Of a stretch of 64,000 nt of DNA, positions 37,098-41,592 are shown one piece after another; the stretch's first letter is position 1, and each line of letters begins with the position of its first letter. The position numbers and the translations under genes were made by a program. Under the pieces are notes generated by a model. The model had not been told where the DNA came from, ran no database searches, and was given only the letters and a program-made list of their open reading frames with translations. Origin of the DNA: a bacterium (lineage in GTDB: Bacteria; Chloroflexota; Dormibacteria; Aeolococcales; Bog-877); contig JAJYET010000008.1 of assembly GCA_021785655.1 (NCBI GenBank), positions 1-64,000 on the forward strand, in the 5' to 3' direction.

Positions 37098-37311
37098 TGG
37101 TGCATCCCGATCTCAATTGGCCCGCACCTGGGGGGAAACCCCGGGGGCTGCGGGGGTGGACTCACTCTCCGGGGAACCGGCGTAATCACCCTTCGAACTG
37201 CGGCCTTTGAGCCCCAGACTCTGTAAGTGGAATCCACCGGATCCCCCGGCGAGGCGGGGGGATGGGGAAAGGAATTTAGGGTCTGGGCCCCACGGCCCGG
37301 GAGGTACCACG
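37098..37311. other. Structured leader/intergenic region before the membrane protein gene
   Basis: This 214-bp gap contains inverted repeats, including GTGGAATCCAC (37227-37237) and a stem ATCCCCC/GGGGGAT (37241-37247 with 37257-37263). GGGAGG lies 8 nt before the ATG at 37312. No known riboswitch consensus could be matched by eye on either strand. Confidence 0.4.
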
Positions 37312-37860
37312 ATGCGACGCAAGACCTTCGACGGAATCCTGACCGTGCTGGGAGGGCTGGTGACGCTGATCCTGGTGGGGGCGGGCTCGCTTCTGCTCTG
37401 GGGCGCCAACTACACCAACACCGAGGTCCACAACCAGCTGGCGGCTCAGAAGATCTACTTCCCCGCGGCCAACAGCGCTGAGATCAAGGCACTCCCCGCA
37501 GCCGACGCCACCCTGATGAAGCAGTACGCCGGCCAGCTCATGACCACCGGAGCCCAGGCCGAGGTCTGGGCGGACCACTTCATCGCCGTCCACCTGCACG
37601 AGATCGGGCTCACCTACGACCAGGCCAGCACGCTGGCCCGTTCCAACCCCACCAACACCAAGTACGCGGACCTCAAGACCACAGTCTTCCAGGGCACCAC
37701 GCTGCGCAGTGAGCTGCTGGAGGCCTACGGGTTCTCCATCTTCGGAACCATCGCCTGGATCTCCTCGCTGGTGGCCTTCGCCCTGGCGGCGGTCTTCCTC
37801 CTGCTGACGGCCCTCGGAGTCGTCCACTGGCGGACAGTCCCGCCCACGGCCGAGATCTGA
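37312..37860 (+). CDS. Conserved actinobacterial-type two-helix membrane protein, function unknown
   Basis: 182 aa from the ATG at 37312 after GGGAGG. One helix lies near the N terminus (L-T-V-L-G-G-L-V-T-L-I-L-V-G-A-G-S-L-L-L-W) and one at the C terminus (I-A-W-I-S-S-L-V-A-F-A-L-A-A-V-F-L-L-L). They flank a ~115-residue external domain with V-H-N-Q-L-A-A-Q-K-I-Y-F-P and A-D-H-F-I-A-V-H-L-H-E-I. This pattern recalls a family of hypothetical proteins common in Mycobacterium and Streptomyces. Two His-containing segments in the external domain are notable but not a known metal motif. A terminator-like hairpin follows. Confidence 0.7.
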   Translation: MRRKTFDGILTVLGGLVTLILVGAGSLLLWGANYTNTEVHNQLAAQKIYFPAANSAEIKALPAADATLMKQYAGQLMTTGAQAEVWADHFIAVHLHEIGLTYDQASTLARSNPTNTKYADLKTTVFQGTTLRSELLEAYGFSIFGTIAWISSLVAFALAAVFLLLTALGVVHWRTVPPTAEI

Positions 37861-38354: not shown

Positions 38355-39317
38355 ATGGGAGGCGGAATTTCCACTCCGGGCCGCCGCGGCGGCCGGACCC
38401 TGGAGGAAGCGCTGGTGGAATTGGCTTCGGGGGCGGCGGTGCCGACCAGGAGCACGGGCTGGGCCCGTGCCGGCGACTTCCTGATCTTCGTCAAGCCCCA
38501 CATCGACGTGACCTTCGTGGCCGTGGCGGTCGCGGGGGCTGTTGTCAGCTGGCAGCGGTCCGGGCCTTTCCCGCTCTCCCAGGTACTGCTTCTGGCCGGC
38601 TCGGTGGCCCTGCTCAGCTCCGGGGCTGAGTGCTGGACCAACGTCCGCGACCGCGACCTCGACGCCGTGATGCCCCGCACCCAGGGGCGGCCCCTGGTGA
38701 GCGGCCGGATCGCCGTCCCAGAAGCGCTCCTTCTGGCGCTGGTCCTCACCGGGTCGGGGCTGGGGCTGGCAGCGCTGCTGGGGCCGGTTGCCCTCGGTTT
38801 CCTCGCATTCGCCCTCCTCAGCAACGTGGTGGTCTACAGCCTGCTCACCAAGCGTGCCACCCCCTGGAGCATCGTCCTGGGTTCGGTGGTGGGGGCGCTG
38901 CCCCTCTGGGCCGGCGCCGCGGCTGTTCGTGAGCCCCTGCCCGCCGCCGCTTGGATGCTGGGCGGCACGGTGGGCATCTGGATCTTCGTCCACATCTGGG
39001 TGATCGCTCTGCGCTACCGGGACGACTACGCTGCTGGGGCTGTCCCGATGGCACCCCTGGTGTGGAGCCCGGGGAGGCTCCGCACGGCGCTACTGGCGTC
39101 GGCGGCGGGGATGGGAGCCCTCGCTGTGGCGTCCCTGCTCAGCCTTCGCGGGCCGGCTGTGCCCGAGGCCGTGGCCCTGACCGGAGCCTTCTCCGCCGCG
39201 ATCCTGGCGGGCACGGCCCTGGTGCCGGTCAGGCCCCAGCTGGCGGGCCCGCTGATTCACCTCATCACGATCTATTTGCTGGTGGTCCTGGGGGCGGCTG
39301 TGGCCTGCGCGCTCTGA
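38355..39317 (+). CDS. UbiA-family prenyltransferase, heme O synthase (CtaB)-like
   Basis: 320 aa, about nine hydrophobic helices. The first aspartate-rich motif reads C-W-T-N-V-R-D-R-D-L-D-A-V-M-P-R-T-Q-G-R-P-L, almost the CtaB signature (N-x-x-x-D-R-D-I-D-x-x-M-x-R-T-x-x-R-P-L). The second reads H-I-W-V-I-A-L-R-Y-R-D-D-Y-A-A-G-A-V-P-M, again CtaB-like (H-F-W-x-L-A-L-x-x-x-x-D-Y). CtaB adds a farnesyl group to heme B to make heme O for heme-copper oxidases. No ctaA or oxidase subunit I gene was recognised nearby. The adjacent gene encodes an unfamiliar His-containing membrane protein. Confidence 0.85.
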   Translation: MGGGISTPGRRGGRTLEEALVELASGAAVPTRSTGWARAGDFLIFVKPHIDVTFVAVAVAGAVVSWQRSGPFPLSQVLLLAGSVALLSSGAECWTNVRDRDLDAVMPRTQGRPLVSGRIAVPEALLLALVLTGSGLGLAALLGPVALGFLAFALLSNVVVYSLLTKRATPWSIVLGSVVGALPLWAGAAAVREPLPAAAWMLGGTVGIWIFVHIWVIALRYRDDYAAGAVPMAPLVWSPGRLRTALLASAAGMGALAVASLLSLRGPAVPEAVALTGAFSAAILAGTALVPVRPQLAGPLIHLITIYLLVVLGAAVACAL

Positions 39318-39363
39318 GCTCGCGGGGAGCCGCCTGTCAGGGCCGAGGGGAAAGGAGGGGACG

Positions 39364-40881
39364 ATGGCAACAGAAGTCGACAGCACGGGGGCCCCGGGAT
39401 CGGTCCCGGCCCCCAAGGGGTCCGGGTTGGACTTCACGGCCGTGATGGTGAGGGTCCTCATGGCCTGGATCGTGATCGTGGCGGTGCTGAGCTTCATCAC
39501 CGCCCCCTGGCTGGCTCCGGGCAACAGCGGGGACCTGACCCCCACCCTGGTGTGGTTCTACCACGCCCTCATGCTCCCGGCCGCCCTCCTGTTCTTGATC
39601 ATCTGCACCCGCGTCTACACGCTGCACTCCTGGGTGCGCTACCTGGTCACTCACAGCGCCCTGGTCGCCCTCTTCGAGGGTGCCGGCTTCCTGATCCTCG
39701 GCTACGGGACGCTGCACAACGTTCCTTCGCTGGTTGACTTCGGCTTCTGGGTCATCATGCCCGCCACCCTCGAGCTCTTCGGGGTGACGGTGCTCTTCGT
39801 GGTGGATCTCGCCTGGTGCGCCCTGGTACCTCCCAAGGGTGAGGCGATGACCCCGCAGAAGGCGGAGATCACCTGGGTATTCTTCTTCGCCGGGGTGTCG
39901 GTCCTCACCTGGGTGGTGTTCGGGCTGCTGGCTGCGGCCGCCCAAGTGGGAGTCAGCTGGAGTTTCTGGGCCGGAGCCCAGCACGAGTCCGCCTCGGCGC
40001 TCGCGGGCAACATCGTGACCGCGCACTCCCACGGGATGCTGCCCACTTTCATGGCCGCGATCGTGCTGCTGGCCGCCGAGGCGTTCGGCTACTCACGGCT
40101 CACCGGTGCGCGCAAGCAGGTGGCCCGCTCCGGTGCCGGTCTGATGCTGGCGGGCATCGCCCTCTACTCCGGCATCTACACGATCTCCGGGCTGGGCACC
40201 TTCGTGATCCCCGCCTGGTTCCCCCAGGGGGCGGGCGGCGCCAACGGCATCGCCATGGACGACACCATGACCGGGCTGGTGGGCGTGGGCTCGCTCATCC
40301 TGGCGGGCGCCATGCTGCCTGAGCTCCGTGGGGCCTTCCTTCGGGTGGCGGGCGGCACCGGTCGAGCTCTTAGGCGGCTGAACCCGGTCCGGGTCGGGGT
40401 CTACCTCACCTACGTGATGGCGACCGCCGACATGTACTTCTACGGCTACTACATCGAGATGAACGAGACCCAGTTCGGCTTCGCCAGCACCAGTTCCGCC
40501 TCGCGGGTGATCGACGACCAGATCTTCACCCGGAGCCACCTGCTTTTCGTCTTCGGGGCCCTGCCGATCATCGCCGTTTTTCTGCTGGCCACGGAGCTGG
40601 TGGGCAACGCCTCCGCCGCCGGGCTCACGGTGAAGAAGTGGATGGCCCGTCTGGTGATGGCGGGCATGGTGGTGACCCTCGTGGGCATGGGAATCTGGGT
40701 GTTCTCGACCCCCGGTCACCTCAGCACCTGGTCGATCGGCAGCGGGGGAGAGCTGCTCTACGTCGCCGGACAGGGGCTGATGCTGATCGGGGCCATCGTC
40801 TCTCTGTTCGCGCCGCTGGTCAACCGGACCGAGTCCGCAGCCACCGTGGACGCGCCGACGCCCCGGGCGACCGCCGCCTGA
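39364..40881 (+). CDS. Unrecognised polytopic membrane protein with conserved-looking His-Pro motifs
   Basis: 505 aa from the ATG at 39364, with AAAGGAGGGG upstream. Roughly 12 hydrophobic helices are visible. Histidines sit at helix ends in similar contexts: W-F-Y-H-A-L-M-L-P near residue 66, V-T-H-S-A-L-V near 97, V-T-A-H-S-H-G-M-L-P near 221, and T-R-S-H-L-L-F-V-F-G-A-L-P near 400. The repeated H-x3-LP-like pattern hints at internal duplication and possible heme ligation. The His-His pair and W-x-x-x-H of heme-copper oxidases are not seen, so it is not a standard subunit I. It lies 46 bp after the CtaB-like gene, so they probably share a transcript. Function unknown. Confidence 0.75.
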   Translation: MATEVDSTGAPGSVPAPKGSGLDFTAVMVRVLMAWIVIVAVLSFITAPWLAPGNSGDLTPTLVWFYHALMLPAALLFLIICTRVYTLHSWVRYLVTHSALVALFEGAGFLILGYGTLHNVPSLVDFGFWVIMPATLELFGVTVLFVVDLAWCALVPPKGEAMTPQKAEITWVFFFAGVSVLTWVVFGLLAAAAQVGVSWSFWAGAQHESASALAGNIVTAHSHGMLPTFMAAIVLLAAEAFGYSRLTGARKQVARSGAGLMLAGIALYSGIYTISGLGTFVIPAWFPQGAGGANGIAMDDTMTGLVGVGSLILAGAMLPELRGAFLRVAGGTGRALRRLNPVRVGVYLTYVMATADMYFYGYYIEMNETQFGFASTSSASRVIDDQIFTRSHLLFVFGALPIIAVFLLATELVGNASAAGLTVKKWMARLVMAGMVVTLVGMGIWVFSTPGHLSTWSIGSGGELLYVAGQGLMLIGAIVSLFAPLVNRTESAATVDAPTPRATAA

Positions 40882-41515: not shown

Positions 41516-41592
41516 TGGTGCCCGCACCAGGACTCGAACCTGGAACCTTGGGATTAAGAGTCCCCTGCTCTAACCAATTGAGCCATGCGGGC
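41516..41592 (-). tRNA. tRNA-Lys (anticodon CUU)
   Basis: The reverse strand folds as a full cloverleaf. Acceptor arms are GCCCGCA and TGCGGGC, the D arm is GCTC-AATTGGTTA-GAGC, the anticodon loop is CTCTTAA giving CUU, and the T arm is CCAGG-TTCGAGT-CCTGG. A discriminator A and an encoded CCA follow (41516-41518). The anticodon stem has four good pairs with a G-A mismatch at 27-43. It decodes AAG, the main lysine codon in GC-rich genomes. Confidence 0.97.

Follow-up and report, generated by a model that had tools for sequence, protein, structure and literature searches.

A predicted heme-copper-oxidase-like membrane protein with its own histidine layout, paired with a divergent heme O synthase-like enzyme

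Introduction

Heme-copper oxidases (HCOs) are built from three four-helix arcs arranged with pseudo-threefold symmetry. Their cofactor ligands are one His on transmembrane helix 2 (TM2), one His on TM6, a His-His pair on TM7 and an H-x-H motif on TM10. To our knowledge, HCOs are recognised by this apparently universal six-His layout on fixed helices. Six conserved His residues have been used as the acceptance criterion for an HCO (PMC3084760). A further heme protein with a four-helix unit is styrene oxide isomerase (SOI), a homotrimer of 4-TM subunits in which an interface heme b is held by H58 and Y103 is catalytic (PMC11374702).

Here we report on a gene pair in a 64,000-nucleotide stretch of contig JAJYET010000008.1 (positions 1 to 64,000; the window), which belongs to a 2.3 Mb MAG that is 91% complete (G000). 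The pair consists of a divergent CtaB-like gene (its product and the orthologs found in the same position are called cassette CtaB) and a gene for a His-motif membrane protein that we named MemH (Table 1).

Table 1. Features of the CtaB-like/MemH locus (window positions; residue counts are for MemH homologs)
Feature	Position	Strand	Remarks
CtaB-like ORF (cassette CtaB), divergent heme O synthase / UbiA-family prenyltransferase	38355..39317	+	320 aa
Asp-rich catalytic motif of the CtaB-like protein, residues 95-109 (TNVRDRDLDAVMPRT)	38637..38681	+	
Ribosome-binding site AGGAGG of the MemH gene	39353..39358	+	read directly from sequence
MemH, His-motif membrane protein	39364..40881	+	505 aa; 12 TM; predicted heme-copper-oxidase fold
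H67, start of TM2 (YHALMLP)	39562..39564	+	His in 56/57
H97 (THSALV), cytoplasmic side of TM3	39652..39654	+	His in 22/34; close clade only
G115-T-L-H118, outer end of TM3	39706..39717	+	candidate counterpart of NOR GTGHH (hhalign alignment)
H221-S-H223, TM6 H-x-H (AHSHGM)	40024..40032	+	57/58 and 58/58
Y272, outer end of TM7	40177..40179	+	58/58
D299-D300, outer start of TM8 (NGIAMDDTMTG)	40258..40263	+	57/58 and 58/58
E365-x-x-E368, outer end of TM9 (GYYIEMNE)	40456..40467	+	55/58 and 56/58
D385...H392, start of TM10 (DQIFTRSH)	40516..40539	+	D385 57/58, H392 58/58

Results

Pairing of MemH with a CtaB-like gene

The two ORFs were found at the places given in the initial annotation, on the same strand with 46 bp between them. 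The MemH gene has a good ribosome-binding site, and 12 TM helices were predicted in its product. MemH sequences fell into two clades separated by a long branch, a close clade with 44-95% and a distant clade with 22-26% identity to the window protein. The CtaB-like gene was directly upstream of MemH in all 24 close homologs, spread over three phyla, whose upstream DNA was available (22 loci plus L157 and L158). Orthologs in the close clade therefore keep the CtaB-like neighbor, and the pairing proposed in the initial annotation holds there.

Cassette CtaB (at least 320 bits; next best match anywhere, 91 bits) was present in exactly 9 of 61 relatives, all of them with close-clade MemH, and absent in the other 52, absence calls in these MAGs being affected by contig gaps. 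G006 was rejected as a clean cassette loss because the contig breaks off 48 bp from the neighboring gene, which makes the call unsafe. Eight of the nine relatives carrying cassette CtaB had a second CtaB of canonical type, fragmentary in one of them. Identities of the CtaB-like and MemH proteins were correlated across locus pairs (r = 0.81, uncontrolled for species history). By these sequence comparisons, the CtaB-like gene is a paralog dedicated to MemH.

Across phyla, no further conserved neighbor of the unit was found. A small 2-TM membrane protein is encoded upstream of the cassette (37207-37860), and a homolog (46% identity) lies 574 bp downstream of the cassette in another phylum (L039:10077-10697). 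We rejected this protein as a third gene of the unit because it is widespread, being present in 44/61 relatives regardless of MemH; it is probably a chance neighbor. A tRNA-Lys (CTT) gene lies close downstream of the cassette on the minus strand (41516-41592). At one Bacillota locus (L157:8403-9845), a gene for a UbiE/COQ5-type methyltransferase with a fused universal stress protein domain comes after the cassette.

The CtaB-like partner enzyme

The CtaB-like ORF matched the UbiA family (PF01040, E = 7.8e-39), and its best NCBIfam match was TIGR01473 cyoE_ctaB (E = 2e-49, 168.8-168.9 bits). The best non-CtaB UbiA family was far weaker (1.6e-14). The window protein was below the TIGR01473 equivalog cut-off (~169 vs 210.3 bits); cassette CtaBs as a group scored 150-213 bits, and two barely passed (210.6 and 213.2 bits). 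Because several orthologs are 300-301 aa long, the true start of the ORF may be about 20 codons downstream.

Residues D99, D103, M106, R108 and T109 were kept in 22/22 cassette CtaBs, as were K166, H213, W215, D224, Y225, P231 and P234. The canonical N95 was replaced by T in all 22, and N143G, Y157N, T162S, N172S and F214I were likewise fixed at canonically invariant positions. The 22 proteins formed their own clade (support 0.995) on a branch of 1.99 from canonical CtaBs. A canonical CtaB was found elsewhere in the window's genome (G000:C5, 297 bits), and most genomes with cassette CtaB encode one elsewhere (290 bits or more). The motifs kept in all 22 proteins suggest that cassette CtaB probably has prenyltransferase activity, with heme or a closely related molecule as its substrate, and the fixed substitutions point to a possibly altered specificity.

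A quite different role would be prenylation of a non-heme substrate, with MemH as a transporter or channel for the product. The sub-cut-off score of the window protein and the many fixed clade substitutions at canonically invariant positions fit such a role. We consider it improbable, because heme O synthase is still the best family by a wide margin and the catalytic motifs are intact. On the MemH side, the structural models described below match HCOs and not transporters, and the invariant positions are taken by His and acidic residues that lie towards the outside.

The CtaB-like neighbor was found at none of the 11 distant-clade MemH loci of the species scan, and a TIGR01473 search of one distant-clade genome (G219) gave no match at all. 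Prenylated heme is therefore probably not needed family-wide and is at most the property of one clade.

Predicted fold of MemH

We did not observe any match for MemH alone in Pfam, NCBIfam, PHROG or PDB sequences, or for the MemH family alignment in Pfam or PDB sequences. PF00115 (COX1) matched neither window MemH nor any of 34 family members at E ≤ 1, which bears out an earlier remark that the standard oxidase motifs are missing. The dN/dS ratio was 0.10-0.11 against four orthologs, so MemH is a real gene under purifying selection.

The AF2 model of window MemH, built on the 34-sequence family alignment, had a pTM of 0.84 and a pLDDT of 80.9. A distant-clade MemH with 23-28% identity to close-clade members gave a pTM of 0.87 and a pLDDT of 83.2; the two alignments share sequences, hence the models are not fully independent. 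In a Foldseek search of the PDB with the window model, the best 50 matches listed were all HCO subunit I and covered every HCO type (1xme, E = 2.6e-4, prob 1.00; also bo3, aa3, cbb3 and qNOR). Among the matches listed for the distant-clade model, all those with a probability of at least 0.98 were HCOs (TMq 0.62 for 8ugh_4A, 0.59 for bo3 7n9z and 0.55 for cbb3), and non-HCO matches had a probability of at most 0.51. TM-scores for the MemH models were modest (mostly 0.4-0.6, rmsd 6-11 Å), and the distant-clade model had no E-value below 0.01. Overall, AF2 and Foldseek predict the 12-TM HCO core fold for two distant members of the family.

Conserved residues of MemH

Conservation was assessed in 58 MemH homologs unless stated otherwise. 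Four His residues were essentially invariant: H67 (TM2), H221 and H223 (TM6) and H392 (TM10). They sit near the outer start of their helices, and all three helices also bear ligands in HCOs. Assignment to a known transporter family without His conservation, which would have spoken against the initial annotation, was not what we found, as MemH had no family match and these four His are invariant. That annotation had also listed four His motifs, of which YHALMLP, AHSHGMLP and RSHLLFVF proved essentially invariant and THSALV was confined to the close clade. We rejected H97 of the latter motif as a ligand because it is not conserved (22/34) and because the prediction puts it on the cytoplasmic side of TM3.

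Residues of polar types that were at least 90% conserved were W35, H67, W129, S179, H221, S222, H223, Y272, N294, D299, D300, T303, Y362, E365, E368, D385 and H392. If the N terminus is inside, as Arg/Lys-rich loops after even helices support (positive-inside rule), all of them lie in the outer membrane half or in loops on the outer side. In the inner helix halves, no polar residue was conserved among the 58 homologs. The motif at the end of TM3 was GT.HH or GT.HN in the close clade and mostly G.FD in the distant clade. Position 118 was H, Y, D or N family-wide, mostly D in the distant clade, so a fifth conserved His (H118 or H119) occurred in the close clade only and no third metal ligand was conserved across the whole family.

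MemH does not have the six-His set of HCOs. It has four invariant His, no His-His on TM7 and no H-x-H on TM10. By its ligand set it falls outside the HCOs, because the H-x-H is on TM6, TM2 and TM10 carry a single His each, and TM7 carries none.

Register of the four-helix units

We compared MemH with NORs and HCOs by hhalign, whose E-values are for single comparisons. MemH TM5-8 matched NOR TM9-12, the H-x-H unit, with E = 4.3e-4 and a score of 31.1 (18.7 for the reversed control), and Bacillota-clade MemH TM5-8 matched it with E = 3.5e-5 and a score of 37.1 (15.5 for the reversed control). A full-length match to two NORs placed GTLH on GTGHH and SHSH on SHGH. In a 9-way repeat comparison with NOR, the best partners (R1-B, R2-C and R3-A) corresponded to one cyclic shift. 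Only R2-C was significant; the R1 score was not above its reversed control and R3 was not significant alone. When the family was split by clade, the pattern was reproduced in repeat 2 only.

Against mixed HCOs, MemH TM5-8 matched TM1-4 best (36.0) and TM9-12 second (24.0). Whole-length in-register profile alignment of MemH to HCO groups was weak. We also aligned permuted HCO profiles with MemH: TM9-12 followed by TM1-8 gave E = 4.7e-5, the unpermuted profile 6.4e-5, and TM5-12 followed by TM1-4 0.0026. The HCO repeats resemble each other (TM1-4 vs TM9-12, E = 9.5e-14; weaker with TM5-8; HCO sequences L065-L110), so permuted and unpermuted registers are ambiguous. These profile comparisons support homology of the MemH TM5-8 unit to an HCO/NOR unit.

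The placement of MemH TM5-8 on the H-x-H unit of NOR suggests that the cofactor site may be rotated by one four-helix unit or that MemH may be circularly permuted. In the cyclic-shift mapping, H67 would be the CuB/FeB His, H118(/119) the TM7 His-His, H221/H223 the H-x-H and H392 the low-spin His, so that the ligand logic of HCOs would for the most part be recovered. We tentatively entertain, as somewhat less than an even prospect, that MemH is an HCO/NOR that has undergone circular permutation or a rotation of its cofactors. The H-x-H, the His of the low-spin heme and that of the non-heme metal would then sit one four-helix unit earlier than in known HCOs, the His-His would have become mostly Asp in the distant clade, one lineage would have recruited its own heme O synthase, and MemH would represent a new respiratory class. 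In the literature searched, we found no paper joining circular permutation with heme-copper cytochrome c oxidase.

MemH could instead be an in-register, degenerate HCO, a heme protein that has lost CuB (the TM7 His-His) and one low-spin heme ligand, does not reduce O2 or NO, and functions in electron transfer, regulation or sensing. Foldseek aligns the MemH models sequentially over ~500 columns, D385-x-x-F388-x-x-x-H392 on TM10 resembles the HCO HDTYFVVAH spacing, and the variability of position 118 also fits such a loss. However, the invariant H-x-H is on TM6 rather than TM10, and the profile of its unit matches NOR TM9-12 or HCO TM1-4 rather than TM5-8. The invariant outer acidic cluster and the dedicated cofactor enzyme also suggest catalysis and not decay. 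We therefore regard a degenerate HCO as unlikely.

SOI sequences (L187-L191) were compared as well, and hhalign aligned 115 columns of SOI with MemH TM5-8. Of the SOI active-site residues H58, N64, D95, N99 and Y103, the alignment was suggestive for H58, whose region fell close to H221, and for Y103, which fell close to Y272. This would suit a non-respiratory heme enzyme of three fused four-helix SOI-like units, in which a His-ligated heme serves as a Lewis acid or acts on an organic or sulfur substrate. The score was, however, near its reversed control (16.2 vs 13.6) and unstable across sub-clades, so that SOI homology was not significant. A possible architectural link between SOI and MemH TM5-8 is noted as an observation without statistical support. 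The Foldseek matches listed were HCOs and not SOI, and the dedicated heme O synthase would be left unexplained, so the chance that MemH is such an enzyme appears slim.

Distribution of MemH

MemH was patchy, occurring in 10/61 relatives and in 10/96 genomes of the class. A scan of 84,980 species gave 33 MemH loci, including Dormiibacterota, Actinomycetes/Actinobacteria/Acidimicrobiaceae, Chloroflexi and Bacillota. A profile search of the class of one Bacillota genome detected MemH in 23/151 genomes, some with several copies. Viral contigs that were searched held no relatives. Dormibacterota have been reported from acid mine drainage sediments (PMC9061769). Many bacteria with the MemH unit are probably from acidic places and may be acid-adapted.

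Several Bacillota MAGs carried clusters of 2-4 MemH copies (L153:4666-18464, L155:5757-20000, L159:2721-9379 and L161:157-4327). Several of these clusters adjoin genes for an ApbE flavin transferase (PF02424; E = 2.4e-48 in L153) and for exported proteins that have no Pfam assignment. In one paralog (L161:157-1614), H67 is replaced by N and H221 by Y, and several acidic residues are also lost.

An ordinary COX1 was present in 13/16 tested genomes, 12 of them with MemH. Since most MemH genomes hold an ordinary COX1, MemH is not the sole terminal oxidase there and is probably an additional enzyme beside COX1.

Discussion

Our data favor, with moderate confidence, the explanation that MemH is a heme-binding oxidoreductase of HCO/NOR fold with its own ligand arrangement, forming one functional unit with a heme-prenylating CtaB-like enzyme. 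The fold and the residue conservation were computed; heme binding and the CtaB product are suggested by family knowledge and by the gene pairing, and the electron donor and acceptor named below are inferences only. The initial annotation had proposed an undescribed heme-containing membrane enzyme, perhaps using a heme O-type cofactor. The predicted oxidase fold, the invariant His and the dedicated partner speak for this proposal, and the unpaired distant clade confines its cofactor part to at most one clade.

In the proposed mechanism, H67, H221, H223 and H392 would serve as ligands of two hemes, and perhaps also of a non-heme metal, close to the outer membrane surface. The CtaB-like prenyltransferase would make a hydroxyethylfarnesyl-type heme (heme O or similar) for one MemH site, so that in the close clade one of the two hemes would be prenylated. 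Chemistry and proton uptake would most likely both take place on the outer membrane side, as in cNOR, because no polar residue is conserved in the inner half and an invariant acidic cluster lies outside. No conserved cytochrome c or subunit II gene was found next to MemH, and for this reason electrons may come from the quinol pool. By analogy, a small diatomic (O2 or NO) would be the most likely acceptor.

MemH may represent a branch of the respiratory heme enzymes that has not been described before. If so, the pseudo-threefold HCO scaffold can hold cofactors elsewhere than in the known layout. This would bear on the origin of the oxidase fold, which may have arisen by fusion of four-helix heme units, and every annotation library tested here would have missed an enzyme of respiration or detoxification. 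In the models and alignments, MemH combines an HCO-like predicted fold with a different, strictly conserved His layout and a dedicated heme O synthase-like partner, and it lies outside known sequence families.

Like MemH, SOI has a four-helix unit. Its heme-ligating His is close to where the second helix begins on the outer side, a Tyr lies near the end of the third helix (PMC11374702), and three 4-TM units of SOI make 12 helices, as in MemH; SOI, in contrast, is a separate 169-aa homotrimer. MemH differs from HCOs (PF00115) in its lack of a PF00115 match, in the position of its H-x-H on TM6 and in the absence of a His-His from TM7. Neither the TM2 His nor the TM6 His is followed four residues later by Tyr or Glu, the inner half has no conserved polar channel, and MemH has no subunit II or cytochrome c neighbor. 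It resembles HCOs and NORs in its predicted 12-TM fold and in having His in the outer halves of TM2, TM6 and TM10. Being partnered by a CtaB-type gene is a further likeness, and by profile comparison the four-helix unit with the H-x-H is similar to NOR TM9-12. Cassette CtaB itself has CtaB/CyoE (TIGR01473) as its best family and keeps the Asp-rich motif, MxRT, K166, HxW, DY and P234. Unlike canonical CtaB/CyoE, it is mostly below the equivalog cut-off, belongs to a separate long-branch clade with fixed substitutions, is MemH-specific and co-occurs with a normal CtaB.
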